NCBI GenBank assembly: GCA_903917505.1
Contig: CAIXAY010000224.1
Location: 1 to 6,120, forward strand
Origin: an uncultured beta proteobacterium
GTDB lineage: Bacteria; Pseudomonadota; Gammaproteobacteria; Burkholderiales; Rhodocyclaceae
Length of the DNA stretch: 6,120 bases
Direction: 5' to 3'
Below the pieces are notes generated by a model. The model worked only from the letters and a program-made list of their open reading frames with translations. It did no database searches and was not told where the DNA came from. The stretch's first letter is position 1; the number at the start of each line of letters is the position of its first letter. Of the stretch, positions 91 through 6,120 are shown piece after piece. The position numbers and the translations under genes are program-made.

Positions 91-513
91 ATGGCACTCA
101 GAGTTCATGTCGATCTGGTCAGCGCCGAAGAACTGATCTTCTCCGGCGAGACCGATTTCGCGGTGTTCCCGGGCGAAGCCGGCGAGCTCGGGATATTCCC
201 TCGGCATACGCCGCTGCTGACCCGCATCAAGCCGGGAACCGTGCGCCTGAAGATCCCGGGTCGCGAGGAATACGAGCTGATCTATGTCTCGGGCGGAATC
301 CTCGAAGTGCAGCCGACGCTGATCACCCTGCTCGCCGACACCGCGATCCGCGCCCACGATCTCGACGAGGCCAAGGCCATCGAAGCCAAGCGCCGCGCCG
401 AGGAAGCGCTGAAGACGCGCAGCGCCGATGTCAGCTACGCCGCCGCCGAAGCCGAACTGGCGCAGGCCATCGCGCAGCTGCAGACGATCAAGAAGCACCG
501 TCCGCAGCATTGA
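91..513 (+). CDS. atpC: F1Fo ATP synthase subunit epsilon
   Basis: A complete 140-residue protein, the usual length for the epsilon subunit. Epsilon sits in the central stalk of F1, couples rotation of gamma to catalysis and can inhibit ATP hydrolysis. The N-terminal beta-sandwich covers about residues 3-85 and contains the family signatures [14 protein letters not shown] (31-44), VSGGILEV (66-73) and LADTA (81-85). The C-terminal pair of helices (about 89-135) is rich in Ala, Glu and Lys and carries the helix-turn-helix hairpin used in auto-inhibition. The ATG at 91 is preceded by a purine-rich stretch (GAAAGAAA) rather than a strong Shine-Dalgarno sequence; translation may be helped by the close upstream atpD stop. 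It appears to be the last gene of the atp operon: the following 350 bases hold no intact + strand gene. The sequence style is betaproteobacterial, which is an inference from resemblance. Confidence 0.95.
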
Positions 514-866: not shown

Positions 867-2729
867 TCAATCCATATCCGCCGTCGTGATCGAGATATTC
901 TTCATTTTGCGCCACAGCGTCACCCGGCTGATTCCCAGACGCTTGCACAGTTCGTCGGCGCTGTGCTTGGCGAGCAGGTTGCGGATGATTTCCGATTCCA
1001 TCTGTTTCAAGGAGCCGCATTCGGGAATCGTCATGAAGTTCGCCTCGCTGAGCGGGCGCTCCTGTTCGCCGAGCACCTCGGCAATCTGGCGCGCATCGAC
1101 GTGCTCGCTTTCGCTGTAGGCGACGACTTCGGCCACGTTGCGCAGCTGCCGGATGTTGCCCGGCCAGGAATGGGAGCGCAGCAAGTCCTTCGCGTCGTCG
1201 GCGAGATGGGCGTGGCGCCCGGCCTGGCCGGCGAAGCGCTGCAGGTAGTGCTCGAAGATCTGCGGGATGTCCTCGGTGCGCGCGCGCAGCGGCGGAATGC
1301 GCAAGCTGACCACGTGGATTCGGTAGTAAAGATCCTGGCGAAAACTTCCCGAGAGCGTTTGGGCAAAGAGATCGCGGTTGGTCGCCGAGATGATGCGCAC
1401 GTCGATCGGGATGATCCGATCGTCGCCGATGCGCATGATTTCGCGTTCCTGCAGGACGCGCAGAAAGCGATTCTGGATCTCCGGCGCGAGTTCGCCGATT
1501 TCGTCGAGGAACAGCGTGCCCTGATGCGCGAGTTCGAAAAGTCCCGGTTTGCCGCCTTTGCGCGCGCCGGTGAAGGCCCCGTCGACGTAACCGAAGAGTT
1601 CGCTCTCGAGCAGGCTGGGTGCGATCGCGGCGATATTGATCGAGACGAAAGGACCCTTGCTGCGCTTGCTGCTGTTGTGGATACTCTGCGCGAACACTTC
1701 CTTGCCGGTTCCCGTTTCGCCGTAGATCAGCAGGTTGGCGTCGTGTCCGGCGTAGGTCCGGGCGCGTGCGGTCACCTGCTGCATGAGCAGCGAGTCGCCG
1801 ATCACATCCTTGAAGCGGTAGCGCGCATAGAGCCCCTTCTGATAGAACGACGAACGAATTTTGGATTCTGACGCCTGGATCTTGCTCACTTCGTGCAGCG
1901 TCAACACCTTGCCGCGCACCGCATTGTTGAATTCGAGCGGGATGCTGCGGGCAATCACGCTGTTGCCGTTGATCGTGGTGATCTGCTCTTTTTCACCGGC
2001 GTCGAAAACCGCGAGCGCGTGCCTGAAATCGGGCGGGCTCGCCGGGCTGATCGCGCAGATGCGGCGGGCGTGCCGGTTGTAGAAGCTCACTTCATGCTCG
2101 GGCGTGACCGCGATCACCGCTTCGTCGATGTTGTCGATGATCGCCGCGAGTTGCGCCGCCTGGAGCTTCTCCCGTTCTTTCGCCGCGAGGATGCGCATCG
2201 CCTCCTGCAGCGCGGTGCGAATCGAGACCGGTCCGCTCTCGATGAAGACCGCCTCGATGCCGAGCTCGCGCGCCGTCGCGAAAGCCACGCGGCAGCCGAT
2301 GATCGCCTCGTAACCCTCGGCGGCGAGCTCTCTGATCGCCGACTTGATGCCTTCTTCATCGGCCTGCGGCCGGATGCTGACCAGCGCATCGAGAATCCGG
2401 AAGTCGCCGAGCGCACCACTGAAGAGATTCGCTTGGCTGACGATGCCGATGCGCTTGATGCCCTTGGCGGTAAGCTCGCCGAGATTGGCGAGCAATTCGT
2501 TGAGCGACATGGCGATTTCGACGACGCTGATGCCCGGAATCCGGCGCACGAGTTCGGCGAGCCCGCCGCGCGTGACGACCACCTCGACACCCGGGTAGTC
2601 GCGAACGCGATCGAGTGCGCCGGCGTCGTCCGAAATCTCGATCGAGATGTCGATGCCCAGTTCGCGGGCGATGGCGGGCGCCAGGTCGGCGATGCTCTGC
2701 ATCGGGCTGAGTAAGAGAATGGGGAGCAT
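867..2729 (-). CDS. Sigma-54-dependent activator with PrpR_N sensor domain
   Basis: A cytoplasmic bacterial enhancer-binding protein of 620 residues when started at ATG 2729. It would bind an upstream site and use ATP to remodel sigma-54 RNA polymerase. Residues about 1-178 match the PrpR N-terminal ligand-sensing fold (PF06506), opening MLPILLLSPMQSIADLAPAI. Residues about 188-283 look PAS-like. The AAA+ domain has Walker A GETGTGKE (337-344), the sigma-54 contact loop GAFTGA (384-389), Walker B LFLDE (406-410), sensor I ATNRD (449-453), arginine-finger region FRQDLYYR (463-470) and sensor II WPGNIRQL (522-529). A Fis-type helix-turn-helix lies at about 591-610 (ADELCKRLGISRVTLWRKMK). All key catalytic parts are intact. 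Earlier in-frame starts exist at GTG 2780 and ATG 2765. I prefer 2729 because the family fold begins there and a candidate promoter and operator arm cover the upstream codons, although no start has a strong ribosome site. It is divergent from uxaBA, so it is probably their activator. PrpR itself senses 2-methylcitrate; the ligand here is unknown, perhaps a uronate intermediate. Confidence 0.93.
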   Translation of the reverse strand: MLPILLLSPMQSIADLAPAIARELGIDISIEISDDAGALDRVRDYPGVEVVVTRGGLAELVRRIPGISVVEIAMSLNELLANLGELTAKGIKRIGIVSQANLFSGALGDFRILDALVSIRPQADEEGIKSAIRELAAEGYEAIIGCRVAFATARELGIEAVFIESGPVSIRTALQEAMRILAAKEREKLQAAQLAAIIDNIDEAVIAVTPEHEVSFYNRHARRICAISPASPPDFRHALAVFDAGEKEQITTINGNSVIARSIPLEFNNAVRGKVLTLHEVSKIQASESKIRSSFYQKGLYARYRFKDVIGDSLLMQQVTARARTYAGHDANLLIYGETGTGKEVFAQSIHNSSKRSKGPFVSINIAAIAPSLLESELFGYVDGAFTGARKGGKPGLFELAHQGTLFLDEIGELAPEIQNRFLRVLQEREIMRIGDDRIIPIDVRIISATNRDLFAQTLSGSFRQDLYYRIHVVSLRIPPLRARTEDIPQIFEHYLQRFAGQAGRHAHLADDAKDLLRSHSWPGNIRQLRNVAEVVAYSESEHVDARQIAEVLGEQERPLSEANFMTIPECGSLKQMESEIIRNLLAKHSADELCKRLGISRVTLWRKMKNISITTADMD

Positions 2730-2760
2730 GGCCAACTCGTTGGGAAAGGTGAGGGCCGAG

Positions 2761-2788
2761 ATCATAGCAGAATGTTTCACAAATGCAA
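2761..2788 (-). promoter_or_regulatory. Candidate sigma-70 promoter of the activator gene
   Basis: Read on the minus strand, TTGCAT (+ strand 2783-2788) and TATGAT (2761-2766) are separated by 16 bases. The -10 hexamer is extended by TGC. The -35 matches only three of six consensus bases, so the extended -10 would carry most of the activity. Transcription would begin near 2754, leaving a leader of about 25 bases before ATG 2729. The -35 lies within the left arm of the inverted repeat, so the activator could block its own transcription when bound. Confidence 0.4.
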
Positions 2789-2813
2789 TTTCAGTGCTTG
2801 CATTAGTGAAACA
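2773..2813. promoter_or_regulatory. Inverted repeat, likely activator binding site (UAS)
   Basis: The left arm TGTTTCACAAATGCAA (2773-2788) and the right arm TTGCATTAGTGAAACA (2798-2813) are reverse complements at 15 of 16 positions, separated by 9 bases. The centre (2793) lies about 86 bp upstream of the predicted sigma-54 transcript start, inside the usual range for enhancer-binding proteins. The outer TGTTTCAC/GTGAAACA half-sites have centres about 33 bp apart, roughly three helical turns, which fits oligomer binding on one DNA face. The neighbouring PrpR_N-type activator is the natural candidate to bind. The repeat itself is directly seen; its role is inferred. Confidence 0.72.
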
Positions 2814-2833
2814 AATCCATCGTATCCAGGCGC

Positions 2834-2846
2834 TAAGTCGATGATT
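2834..2846 (-). promoter_or_regulatory. Candidate IHF site between enhancer and promoter
   Basis: On the minus strand AATCATCGACTTA matches eight of the nine defined positions of the IHF consensus WATCAANNNNTTR; the sixth base is T instead of A. It lies between the inverted repeat and the -24/-12 promoter, where IHF commonly bends DNA to bring the activator to sigma-54 polymerase. The consensus is loose, so chance occurrence is possible; the position raises its value. Confidence 0.4.
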
Positions 2847-2852
2847 TTTCTA

Positions 2853-2868
2853 TGGCACAGGCTTTGCT
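2853..2868 (+). promoter_or_regulatory. Sigma-54 (-24/-12) promoter of uxaBA
   Basis: TGGCACAGGCTTTGCT fits the sigma-54 consensus TGGCACNNNNNTTGCW at every defined position. The invariant GG (2854-2855) and GC (2866-2867) are ten bases apart, as required. Transcription is expected to start near 2879, giving a leader of about 35 bases before the uxaB start at 2915. The adjacent divergent gene encodes a GAFTGA-containing sigma-54 activator, which independently supports the assignment. Confidence 0.9.
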
Positions 2869-2904
2869 ATAGGTGACCATCATTCAAAAACCCTTAGTTT
2901 CCCT

Positions 2905-2908
2905 GGAG
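2905..2908 (+). promoter_or_regulatory. Ribosome binding site that fixes the uxaB start
   Basis: GGAG stands 6 bases before GTG 2915, within TGGAGAAGCCCGTG. The upstream in-frame GTG at 2873 has no such motif at proper spacing and lies before the predicted sigma-54 transcript start (about 2879), so it should not be in the mRNA. Confidence 0.75.
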
Positions 2909-2914
2909 AAGCCC

Positions 2915-4414
2915 GTGATCGCCCTGAATCGAATCCATCTTGCGCAAGGCAAGTTCAATGTTGAAGCCAATGCCGTGTCGAGCCGCAAACCCGTCGGCAT
3001 CCTGCAAATCGGCGACGGCAATTTCCTGCGCGCCTTCGTCGACTGGATGGTCGATGTGGCCAACGGCGCCGGCCTGTTCAACGGCGAGGTCACGGTCGCG
3101 CAACCGCTGGCGCAGGGCATCGCCGACTTGATGAACGAACAGGACGGCCTCTATACGGTCCTGCTGCGCGGCGTGCAGAACGGCGTCGCGGTCGATTCGC
3201 GGCGCATCGTCACCTGCGTGAAGAAAGCGGTGAACCCCTACACGCAATGGGAAGCGATGCTGGCCACCGCACAGGACCCGTCCCTGCGCTTCGTCGTCTC
3301 CAATACCACCGAAGCCGGCATCGCCTACGCCGACGAAGCCCTTATCGACGGCCACTGCCCGGCCAATTTCCCGGCCAAGGTCACGGCGCTCCTGCACGCC
3401 CGCTTCGTTGCGCTCGGCGGCAGCGCCGCTCCCGGCCTCGTCTTCCTGCCCTGCGAACTGATCGAGGCCAACGGTTCCAAGCTGCTCAAGTACGTGCTGC
3501 AGACCGCCGAAGCCTGGCGCTTGTCCGCCGAGTTCGTCGCCTGGGTGAAGCGCCACAACATTTTTTGCAACACGCTCGTCGATCGCATCGTTCCGGGCTT
3601 TCCGGCCGCCGAAGCCGCGGCGCTGTACGCCGAACTCGGCTACGAGGACCGCCTGCTGGTCGCCGCCGAGCCCTTCCACCTGTGGGTGATCGAAGGCCCG
3701 GCCGCGCTCGCCGCCGAGTTGCCGCTGCAGCAGGCCGGACTCAACGTCGTGTGGACCGACGACCTGCAACCCTACCGCACGCGCAAGGTGCGCATCCTCA
3801 ACGGCGCGCACACCGCGAGTTCGCTCGCCGCTTTCAGCGCCGGCCTCGATACGGTTCAGGCGATGACCGAAGACCCGGTCGTCTCGGCCTTCCTCAACAA
3901 GGTGATGTTCGAAGAGATCGTCCCCTTCGTGCCGCTGCCCGAAGCCGAGCGCCAGGACTATGCGCAAACCATCATGGAACGCTTCGCCAACCCGAACATT
4001 CGCCACGAACTGATTTCGATCGCGCTCAACTCGGTCTCCAAGTGGCAGGTGCGCGTGCTGCCGACCGTCAAGGACTACGTCGCCGCGCACGGCCAGGCGC
4101 CGGCCGGCCTGTCGTTCTCGCTCGCCGCGCTGCTCAATTTCTATCACGGCAGCCTCGCCGAGGGCGGTGAATTCGAGGGGCTGCGCCAGGACCAGGCGTA
4201 CCCGATTCGCGACAGCGCCGAAGTCGTCGACAGCCTGCATACGGCATGGCAGGGCGCCACCGACGCGGGGGGCGTGGCGATCGGTCTGCTCGCCGATACG
4301 CGCCTGTGGGGCGAGGATCTGACGAGCATCCCCGGCCTCGCCGAACGGACGGCCGCCGCGCTGACGCGAATCAAGGCGGTCGGCGTCGGCGCGGCGATGG
4401 CCGAGTTGGCTTGA
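2915..4414 (+). CDS. uxaB: Tagaturonate reductase (altronate oxidoreductase)
   Basis: A cytoplasmic NAD-dependent enzyme of the mannitol dehydrogenase family that interconverts D-tagaturonate and D-altronate in galacturonate breakdown. With the GTG 2915 start it has 499 residues, close to the E. coli enzyme (about 483). The opening M-I-A-L-N-R parallels the E. coli start M-K-T-L-N-R. The Rossmann nucleotide-binding segment is GILQIGDGNFLRAFVDW (28-44). Other family-typical blocks are QDGLYT (76-81), SNTTEAGI (129-136), LPCELI (178-183) and CNTLVDRIVPG (218-228). The catalytic region RKVRILNGAHT (290-300) holds the conserved Lys291, Asn296 and His299 of this dehydrogenase family. No frame damage is seen. 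It is the first gene of an operon with uxaA, 17 bases apart, behind a sigma-54 promoter. A longer form from GTG 2873 (513 residues) is unlikely. A fructuronate reductase (UxuB) role is less likely given the sequence style and the uxaA partner. Confidence 0.93.
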   Translation: MIALNRIHLAQGKFNVEANAVSSRKPVGILQIGDGNFLRAFVDWMVDVANGAGLFNGEVTVAQPLAQGIADLMNEQDGLYTVLLRGVQNGVAVDSRRIVTCVKKAVNPYTQWEAMLATAQDPSLRFVVSNTTEAGIAYADEALIDGHCPANFPAKVTALLHARFVALGGSAAPGLVFLPCELIEANGSKLLKYVLQTAEAWRLSAEFVAWVKRHNIFCNTLVDRIVPGFPAAEAAALYAELGYEDRLLVAAEPFHLWVIEGPAALAAELPLQQAGLNVVWTDDLQPYRTRKVRILNGAHTASSLAAFSAGLDTVQAMTEDPVVSAFLNKVMFEEIVPFVPLPEAERQDYAQTIMERFANPNIRHELISIALNSVSKWQVRVLPTVKDYVAAHGQAPAGLSFSLAALLNFYHGSLAEGGEFEGLRQDQAYPIRDSAEVVDSLHTAWQGATDAGGVAIGLLADTRLWGEDLTSIPGLAERTAAALTRIKAVGVGAAMAELA

Positions 4415-4431
4415 AGCGCGGAGCCGATGCC

Positions 4432-5946
4432 ATGACCCACGCTTCAGTGATCCGTCTGCACGCCAATGACGACGTGCTGATCGCCACCCGGCAGCTCTTG
4501 CCCGGCACTCTGATCGAATCCGAGAATGTGACGGTGCGCGAGCCGATTCCCCCGGGCCACAAAATGGCCGCGCATGATTTCAAGAGCGGCGATCCCGTGC
4601 GCCGCTACAACCAGATCATCGGTTTCGCCAAGGCCGACATCGGCGCCGGCCAGCACATCCATGCGCACAACCTGGGCATGGGTGAATTCGAGCGCGACTA
4701 TGGCATCGGCGAAGGCGTCCTGGAAACGGTGCCGGTCGAAACGCCGGCGACCTTCCTGGGTTACCGCCGTCCGAACGGCAAGGTCGGGACGCGCAACTAC
4801 ATCGCGGTGATTTCCTCGGTCAATTGCTCGGCGACCGTGACCCGCGCGATCGCCAGCCATTTCAGCAAGGAACGGCTCGCGAATTTTCCGAACATCGACG
4901 GCGTGATCGCCCTGCCGCACCCGCAAGGCTGCGGCATCAACGTTGCCGGCGAAGGCATGCAGATCCTGCGCCGCACGATGGTCGGCTACGCCCAGCATCC
5001 GAACTTCGCCGGCGTGCTGTTCGTCGGCCTCGGCTGCGAGCAGAACCAGATCGCGCCGCTGCTCGAGAGGGTCGGGGCGCACGAAGAAGGCATGCTGCAA
5101 AGCGTGATCATGCAGGCCGAAGGCGGCACCACGGCGGCGATCAAAAAGGGCATCGCGCTGGTCGAGGCCATGCTCGCGCGCGCCAACGCCTTCCGGCGCG
5201 AGGCGGTGTGCGTCAGCAATCTGATCGTCGGTCTCAATTGCGGCGGCTCCGACGGCTATTCGGGAATCACCGCCAACCCGGCGCTCGGCGGCGCTTCCGA
5301 TCTGCTGGTCGCCAACGGCGCCACCACGGTGCTCTCGGAAACGCCGGAAATCTACGGCGCCGAACACCTCTTGACGCGGCGCGCGGCCAGCCCGGAAATC
5401 GCGCAAAAACTGATAGCCCGGATCGAGTGGTGGAAGGACTACACGACGCGCACCGGCAGCGAGATGGACAACAACCCTTCGGTCGGCAACAAGGCCGGCG
5501 GGCTGACGACCATCCTCGAAAAATCGCTGGGCGCGGTGGCCAAGGGCGGGACGAGCACGCTCAAGGGCGTCTACCTCTTCGCCGAACAGATCGACCGCAA
5601 AGGCTTCGTCTTCATGGATACGCCGGGCTACGATCCGGTATCGGCGACCGGCCAGGCGGCGGGCGGCGCGCAGATCATCTGCTTCACCACCGGCCGCGGT
5701 TCGGCTTTCGGCTGCGCCGGCGTGCCGACCATCAAGCTGGCGACCAACAATGCGCTCTACGAACGCATGCGCGACGACATGGACATCAATTGCGGCGACC
5801 TGATCACCGGGACGCCGATGCCGGCGATCAGTCAGCGCATCTTCGACGCCATCATCCGCTACGCCTCAGGCGAAAAGGTGCGCAGCGAAGAGCTCGGTTA
5901 CGGCAACGACGAGTTTCTGCCTTGGCAAGTCGGCGCGGTGATGTGA
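4432..5946 (+). CDS. uxaA: Altronate dehydratase
   Basis: A 504-residue cytoplasmic dehydratase of the UxaA/GarD family, close in length to E. coli UxaA (495). It would convert D-altronate to 2-keto-3-deoxy-D-gluconate, the step after UxaB; characterised members need Fe2+ or another divalent metal. Residues about 1-80 form the SAF domain with PPGHKMAAHDF (40-50). A short linker leads to the catalytic domain (about 108-504), with SVNC (129-132), HPQGCG (163-168), GLGCEQNQ (199-206), CGGSDGYSGITANP (270-283), GNKAGG (352-357) and TTGRGSAFG (419-427). Several conserved Cys are retained (132, 167, 202, 270, 454). ATG 4432 is chosen because GGAG (4420-4423) precedes it by 8 bases and it follows the uxaB stop by 17 bases; the longer in-frame extension would overlap uxaB deeply. 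Some blocks look nearer to galactarate dehydratase (GarD) than to enterobacterial UxaA, so galactarate is an alternative substrate, but linkage to uxaB favours altronate. Confidence 0.9.
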   Translation: MTHASVIRLHANDDVLIATRQLLPGTLIESENVTVREPIPPGHKMAAHDFKSGDPVRRYNQIIGFAKADIGAGQHIHAHNLGMGEFERDYGIGEGVLETVPVETPATFLGYRRPNGKVGTRNYIAVISSVNCSATVTRAIASHFSKERLANFPNIDGVIALPHPQGCGINVAGEGMQILRRTMVGYAQHPNFAGVLFVGLGCEQNQIAPLLERVGAHEEGMLQSVIMQAEGGTTAAIKKGIALVEAMLARANAFRREAVCVSNLIVGLNCGGSDGYSGITANPALGGASDLLVANGATTVLSETPEIYGAEHLLTRRAASPEIAQKLIARIEWWKDYTTRTGSEMDNNPSVGNKAGGLTTILEKSLGAVAKGGTSTLKGVYLFAEQIDRKGFVFMDTPGYDPVSATGQAAGGAQIICFTTGRGSAFGCAGVPTIKLATNNALYERMRDDMDINCGDLITGTPMPAISQRIFDAIIRYASGEKVRSEELGYGNDEFLPWQVGAVM

Positions 5947-5966
5947 AGCCTTGAATTCCTGATTCC

Positions 5967-6120
5967 TCAATCGATATATTTCAGCCCCGCCCTGGCCAGC
6001 GGTTCGCGCATCGCGTACATGTCGAGGCCGAGTTCGCCGGCGGCGAAGCGTTTGCGCTTGTCGGCTTCGTTCGCTTCGCGCGCTTCGGCCGCGTCGGCCA
6101 CCTGCGCCGCGACCTGGCGC
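5967..6120 (-). CDS. C-terminal end of an unidentified convergent gene (partial)
   Basis: The minus strand is open from the window edge to TGA at 5967-5969, giving the last 50 residues of a protein whose start lies beyond the window. The tail has a charged, helix-prone stretch rich in Ala, Glu and Lys ([20 protein letters not shown], then KRKRFAAG) followed by [20 protein letters not shown] and a final Ile-Asp. The codons are G/C-ending like the neighbours, and the ordered tail makes a real gene end likely. I do not recognise the family. It converges on uxaA with only 20 bases between the two stop codons and no visible terminator, so the two transcripts probably overlap at their 3' ends. A function in the same sugar-acid pathway is possible from position only. 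Confidence 0.6.

Follow-up and report, generated by a model that had tools for sequence, protein, structure and literature searches.

How are the genes for tagaturonate reductase (uxaB) and a putative altronate dehydratase (uxaA) switched on when their divergent neighbor encodes a sigma-54-type activator? The question is raised by a stretch of 6,120 nucleotides (the window) of contig CAIXAY010000224.1, assembly GCA_903917505.1, from an uncultured member of the Rhodocyclaceae. The original prediction, made from the letters alone, saw here a "galacturonate-branch operon" controlled by sigma-54 and by an activator whose PrpR_N sensor domain recognizes a uronate-pathway intermediate, for example, tagaturonate or altronate. 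Our follow-up leads to a modified reading, which we consider probable: the activator would sense L-galactonate or D-tagaturonate and fire the sigma-54 promoter of uxaBA, and the block of operators and promoter would ancestrally control an L-galactonate operon. As sequence, the switch is real and conserved, and its pathway label needs widening to L-galactonate. The features of the switch and its genes are as follows.

867..2729, minus strand: activator gene (PrpR_N/AAA+/helix-turn-helix), from Pfam, motif positions, and a model of residues 1-300
2773..2790, no strand: putative operator 1, TGTTTCACAAATGCAATT, perfect in its left half and degenerate in its right
2796..2813, no strand: putative operator 2, GCTTGCATTAGTGAAACA, perfect in its right half and degenerate in its left
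2834..2846, minus strand: site resembling that of integration host factor (IHF), one mismatch, 19 nt upstream of the promoter
2853-2868, plus strand: predicted sigma-54 (-24/-12) promoter, TGGCACAGGCTTTGCT, 0 mismatches to TGGCACRNNNNTTGCW
2915..4414, plus strand: uxaB, tagaturonate reductase, GTG start with GGAGAAG upstream, NCBIfam NF002969
4432..5946, plus strand: uxaA, altronate/galactarate dehydratase family, from Pfam and BLASTP

The promoter had been described as an exact match to the consensus, TGGCACRNNNNTTGCW, and this was borne out. By itself such a match is suggestive, not conclusive; with up to one mismatch, the pattern occurred at least once in 20 of 200 shuffles of the window. 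The predicted transcript start is at 2879, 12 nt past the -12 GC. The near-perfect inverted repeat noticed some 86 bp further upstream is also there, with 16-nt arms (2773-2788 and 2798-2813) that are 94% complementary and separated by 9 nt, and its center (2793) lies 86 bp from the predicted start. The outer TGTTTCAC/GTGAAACA pair, at the same spacing and with up to three mismatches, appeared in none of 200 shuffles. Comparison with the relatives shows this repeat to be two adjacent tandem palindromic operators of the TGTTTCA-N4-TGAAACA type, with centers 23 bp apart. The pair resembles one long inverted repeat because the outer halves are perfect and the inner ones degenerate; operator 1 keeps only its TGT end and operator 2 only its ACA end. 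The possible IHF site survives as a one-mismatch match to the IHF consensus, but on the minus strand, whereas the relatives mostly have theirs on the plus strand, at almost the same position: among 14 other loci, six have an exact match and six a one-mismatch match (all 12 at -17/-18, plus strand), and two only a two-mismatch match. No sigma-70 promoter was found in positions 2650-3000. For uxaB, the GTG at 2915 is the more likely start than one at 2873, because the latter lies upstream of the predicted transcript start.

The divergent gene encodes, as had been claimed, an intact GAFTGA activator with a PrpR_N sensor. Its start, the ATG at 2729, was set by homologue alignment, and Pfam recognizes PrpR_N (96.9 bits, cut-off 29.1), Sigma54_activat (218.8 bits), and HTH_8 (28.9 bits, cut-off 22). 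The PrpR_N sensor occupies residues ca. 1-190 and is followed by a PAS-like region (ca. 200-285), the AAA+ sigma-54 interaction domain, and a Fis-type helix-turn-helix at the C-terminus; Walker motifs are present, GAFTGA stands at residue 384, and the reading frame has no internal stop. The 50 matches listed for a full-length structural model are all sigma-54 activators, and therefore the N-terminus was modeled alone; residues 1-300 matched PrpR (2pju, template modeling score by target 0.62 to 0.76) and PAS domains. The anatomy proposed for sigma-54 and PrpR_N control of uxaBA is accordingly supported at the level of DNA and protein features. In the mechanism that we propose, the activator would bind the two tandem operators, its sensor would bind a pathway sugar acid (L-galactonate or its oxidation product D-tagaturonate), and ATP would be spent to open sigma-54 RNA polymerase at the -24/-12 promoter, turning uxaBA on.

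Relatives of the activator were found among named genomes in Propionivibrio, Accumulibacter, other Rhodocyclaceae, and one Rhodoferax; a scan of viral contigs found none. In a sample of 297 genomes of the family, seven had the activator, 17 had UxaB, and six had both (Fisher p 9e-8, relatedness ignored), with six further, weaker activator-like matches (E 1e-21 to 1e-25). A Burkholderiales sample added nothing at E 1e-50, its single hit in 399 genomes being the already known Rhodoferax genome. These relatives have tandem TGTTTCA-N4-TGAAACA palindromes too, least clear in L009 and L010, and their distance to the -24/-12 element hardly varies. Of the 17 proteobacterial loci, not counting the window, 14 have a sigma-54 site that points away from the activator and departs from the consensus at no more than one position; L011 has one with one further change, and L014 and L015 have none in 260 nt. 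Eleven of the 15 aligned rows went into a matrix; the window was left out, and so were L007 and L067 (near-copies) and L010 (aberrant). With this matrix, the whole block of the window scored 50.2 bits, whereas the best of 60 simulated windows reached -3.1. The operators alone reached 39.0 bits versus 20.4 for the best simulated (training rows, 18.1 to 49.5), in a match shifted by one base relative to the promoter, and the promoter alone 20.5 versus 17.8.

The arrangement also seems confined to one place in the genome. A composite pattern (operator, 25 to 55 nt, sigma-54 promoter), with the reversed pattern as control, matched exactly once each in 13 of 15 proteobacterial genomes that carry the activator (G010 and G013 being the exceptions) and in two of four Firmicutes. 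It matched none of four uxaB-bearing genomes without a found activator; the reversed control gave 0/23. All 15 matches adjoin the activator gene by coordinates, and with one match per genome, beside the activator, the regulon looks like a single promoter. In Firmicutes, we examined 23 loci (L017-L022 and L109-L125) with 24 exact sigma-54-like sites. An operator pair scoring at least 14 lies upstream of 16 of these sites, in 14 of the loci (180 of 2,400 shuffled upstream regions); 13 sites have a pair scoring 16 to 20 with a spacing of 21 to 24 bp, and L115 and L117 have a single good operator only.

What the block faces in the relatives was determined by tblastn. Among 17 proteobacterial loci (L001-L016 and L067), genes of a tripartite ATP-independent periplasmic (TRAP) transporter face the activator in 14, an LgoD-like zinc dehydrogenase is found in 12, and UxaB in 10 (partial in L001), the order being TRAP, LgoD-like dehydrogenase, uxaB, uxaA. 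L009 has dehydrogenase-uxaB-uxaA without TRAP; the L014 locus is cut by the contig, and L015 shows no such divergent genes. Two loci with close activator homologues and TRAP genes, L005 (1-6700) and L011 (684-6605), carry other enzymes and a different dehydrogenase and were excluded from the LgoD count; L005 has a DAK-type kinase set and L011 an enolase-family dehydratase plus a short-chain dehydrogenase/reductase. Among 19 Firmicute activator loci, from a 300-genome sample of the class of Anaerospora, the LgoD-like dehydrogenase is present in 16, UxaA in 15, and UxaB in 13.

L-Galactonate is known to be oxidized to D-tagaturonate, which then passes through UxaB and UxaA (PMC5507952, PMC12632266, and the annotation of E. 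coli lgoD); the hexuronate isomerase route is described in PMC6353982. By its gene content, the relatives' layout is that of an L-galactonate operon and not of a UxaC-type galacturonate operon. The ancestral target of the block would have comprised TRAP import, LgoD-like C5 oxidation to tagaturonate, UxaB, and UxaA. None of the uxaC matches falls inside an activator locus; the closest is ca. 14 kb away (G014). The label "galacturonate-branch operon" is not supported as stated. L010 has, after TRAP and dehydrogenase and in the place of UxaB, a tagaturonate epimerase UxaE (929-2176, minus strand; PF16257, 183 bits); the sole UxaB relative in this genome is a distant one. This supports tagaturonate as the putative product of the dehydrogenase. 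It also weakens altronate as sole effector, the epimerase standing where others have UxaB. The effector would thus be L-galactonate, a new candidate, or D-tagaturonate, retained from the original prediction, with altronate less likely. The two PDB binding proteins nearest to the DctP of one relative, 4ovt and 4o8m, probably have L-fuconate and L-galactonate as ligands; a literature search gave no confirmation.

In the lineage of the window, the import and oxidation genes would be gone from between the promoter and uxaB, so that the switch would act on the downstream part common to L-galactonate and galacturonate breakdown. The strongest alternative is that the window module is a plain galacturonate regulator, with a sensor re-tuned to UxaC-derived tagaturonate or to altronate and L-galactonate playing no part. 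Only uxaBA lie behind the window promoter, uxaA occurs in two Firmicute loci that lack both UxaB and the dehydrogenase, and one genome (G001) has a near-identical uxaB 5' end behind uxaC. UxaC matches are common: of 25 related genomes, 23 have one, the exceptions being G008 and G199. Because of this, the relatives likely use galacturonate too, which UxaBA could also serve, and absence of UxaC as proof of an L-galactonate-only role is ruled out. Nonetheless, the switch is tied to TRAP and/or the LgoD-like dehydrogenase in 15 of the 17 loci counted in Proteobacteria and in 16 of the 19 counted in Firmicutes, and the composite pattern occurs once per matching genome, beside the activator and not at uxaC. 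We regard a purely galacturonate role as unlikely; in the window, uxaBA are probably no less a part of L-galactonate use than of galacturonate use.

Besides this likely use of galacturonate, several observations weigh against our reading. Genes for TRAP or other transporters and for an LgoD-type dehydrogenase are absent from the window. Its whole-block score is below those of all training rows (74.7 to 114.4 bits), the matrix does not recognize its spacer, and the left half of its second operator is degenerate. The relatives' dehydrogenases are only 32 to 40% identical to E. coli LgoD, barely above the 33% of the seemingly unrelated enzyme of L011, and the five tested fall below every NCBIfam cut-off, so that the name LgoD-like rests on context. 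L005 and L011 may differ in effector specificity, as relatives of the switch for other acids. Among Firmicutes, L021, L022, L121, and L124 have a sigma-54 site without an operator pair, and L116, L118, L119, L120, and L125 have no exact sigma-54 site; L120 has the activator and none of the pathway genes, and L123 and L124 have uxaA and lack UxaB and the dehydrogenase. Four Firmicute loci outside the count are mixed, L018 having dehydrogenase-TRAP-UxaB, L022 only UxaA, and L017 and L021 none. Moreover, the loci are related and some are near-copies (L118/L119/L125, L006/L007, L012/L067), many sampled genomes are incomplete bins, and the genome-sample searches scored the best five to seven candidate places per genome, which makes absences uncertain.

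Among the loci seen, the gene order of the window is peculiar to it. The block is conserved across relatives together with a linked PrpR_N gene, which was the check proposed with the original prediction, but not directly before uxaBA: uxaB comes first behind the promoter in none of the 36 counted loci (0/17 proteobacterial, 0/19 Firmicute), and an operator pair plus sigma-54 site lies directly upstream of none of the 25 other uxaB genes examined. This order may come from deletion, transplantation, or assembly error. Phylogenetic trees were built from 31 of 32 UxaB rows (the truncated L001 was dropped) and 28 of 32 UxaA rows, the rest having no usable match. In the UxaB tree, the window falls in a 15-row clade (99/97) of 10 sigma-54-linked, three stand-alone, and two ungrouped copies. 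Its closest neighbors there are L065, one of the stand-alone copies, and L080, a placement that is weakly supported (88/68). The UxaA tree puts the window in an unresolved fork. The trees do not separate deletion from transplantation. An origin of the window's uxaB leader from a uxaC-linked copy was considered and dropped, since the match to L148 was equaled in 11 of 2,000 shuffles, and in 616 of 2,000 without the ribosome-binding site. In genome G001, two near-identical uxaB 5' ends (L001 1-420 and L148 1-420) follow the LgoD-like dehydrogenase in one case and uxaC in the other, and both contigs start inside uxaB.

The junction at ca. 2870-2915, and it alone, could be a contig chimera or mis-assembly, the true genome having TRAP and dehydrogenase genes between promoter and uxaB, which would be compatible with the rest of our reading. 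The uniqueness of the order speaks for this, as do the near-identical uxaB copies at contig ends in a close relative; against it, the junction keeps a clean promoter, with a ribosome-binding site and a start codon after the predicted transcript start (2879), and a reduced form without TRAP exists in L009. We hold such an error to be rather improbable. Finally, that the activator is an ordinary PrpR, whose effector is 2-methylcitrate, sitting by chance beside uxaBA while the operators serve something else, is hardly credible: it has the PrpR_N domain, and PrpR is its best NCBIfam model, but the score is well below the equivalog cut-off (TIGR02329, 354.1 versus 499.2 bits), none of the window proteins scanned is encoded by a prp gene, and the family is associated with sugar-acid genes in both Proteobacteria and Firmicutes.

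The activator is like PrpR in combining PrpR_N, AAA+, and Fis-type helix-turn-helix domains, with an N-terminal model that matches 2pju, and unlike it in its sub-cut-off score and its linkage to sugar-acid genes. For another sigma-54 activator, XduR, control of kdgT-uxaA through the operator TGT-N10-12-ACA has been predicted in four genera of Clostridiales (PMC6615313). The likeness lies in the tie with uxaA and, for the relatives (e.g., L001), in the operator, their palindromes reading as TGT-N12-ACA; in the window, each operator fits at one end only. The published XduR target, which we compare by its description there, differs in being without UxaB, TRAP, and LgoD. Altronate dehydratase is also listed among Bacillota sigma-54 targets (PMC12316311), and a screen for E. 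coli RpoN lists a site by uxaB (PMC8743547), of unclear relevance here. Sigma-54 control of uxaA was therefore already predicted, in Clostridiales, and the "distinct regulatory design" is only partly new. Among the open-licence matches listed (titles, abstract starts, and passages), there was no description of such control of uxaB or L-galactonate genes in Betaproteobacteria.

Known L-galactonate loci are arranged differently. That of E. coli has, by annotation, lgoT, lgoR, and lgoD, with lgoR adjoining lgoD. Halomonas and Chromohalobacter have LgoD, joined in Halomonas by uxaA, uxaB, and a TRAP transporter, as in our relatives; predicted FucR sites are given in the figure legend, and the passages on these loci mention no sigma-54 activator (PMC5507952). 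The window itself has neither lgoD nor TRAP. The L-gulonate pathway of Haemophilus influenzae likewise combines TRAP import with C5 oxidation by a dehydrogenase, there GulD, and differs in proceeding through UxuB and UxuA via fructuronate and mannonate, with UxuR in the primer list (PMC5788505).

As to the remaining genes, the window UxaB scores 601.6 bits with the NCBIfam tagaturonate reductase model (cut-off 359). UxaA is 36.4% identical to E. coli UxaA and 35.9% to E. coli GarD by BLASTP, so that its label rests on position; the context and a natural UxaB-UxaA fusion in relative L112 favor UxaA. The fusion (3025-6075, minus strand; 1,016 residues) lies behind an activator, an LgoD-like dehydrogenase, a major facilitator superfamily (MFS) gene, and a sigma-54 site. 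In L123 (6788-8262) and L124 (6882-8356), uxaA is divided between two genes, of 98 and 386 residues, with a sigma-54 site ahead and an MFS gene behind (Pfam for L123 only), the activator being more distant; this arrangement resembles the published kdgT-uxaA target of XduR. In the window, Pfam found no GntR/ExuR-type regulator among the five proteins scanned. Two further genes border the locus, and in L155 a pfkB-like kinase and a KDPG-type aldolase gene, named by eye from their first residues, are duplicated ca. 10 kb apart (1144-2950 and 11404-13270).

91-513, plus strand: atpC
5967-6119, minus strand: 3' end of a LigK-like (4-carboxy-4-hydroxy-2-oxoadipate) aldolase gene, cut at the window edge and convergent with uxaA

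More tentatively, the PrpR_N activator family of Betaproteobacteria and Firmicutes could be a dedicated sensor of L-galactonate (or tagaturonate) that travels as a module with its operators and promoter, the window lineage having rewired it to uxaBA, so that a sensor for one sugar acid would gate the breakdown of another. PrpR_N domains are familiar mainly from propionate control, and if our reading is true, they would gain a second testable ligand class. In 13 of the 15 proteobacterial genomes with the activator, an exact operator-promoter pattern marks a single place, and Propionivibrio dicarboxylicus DSM 5885 (L012) offers a named strain in which sigma-54 control of the use of sugar acids would be directly testable.

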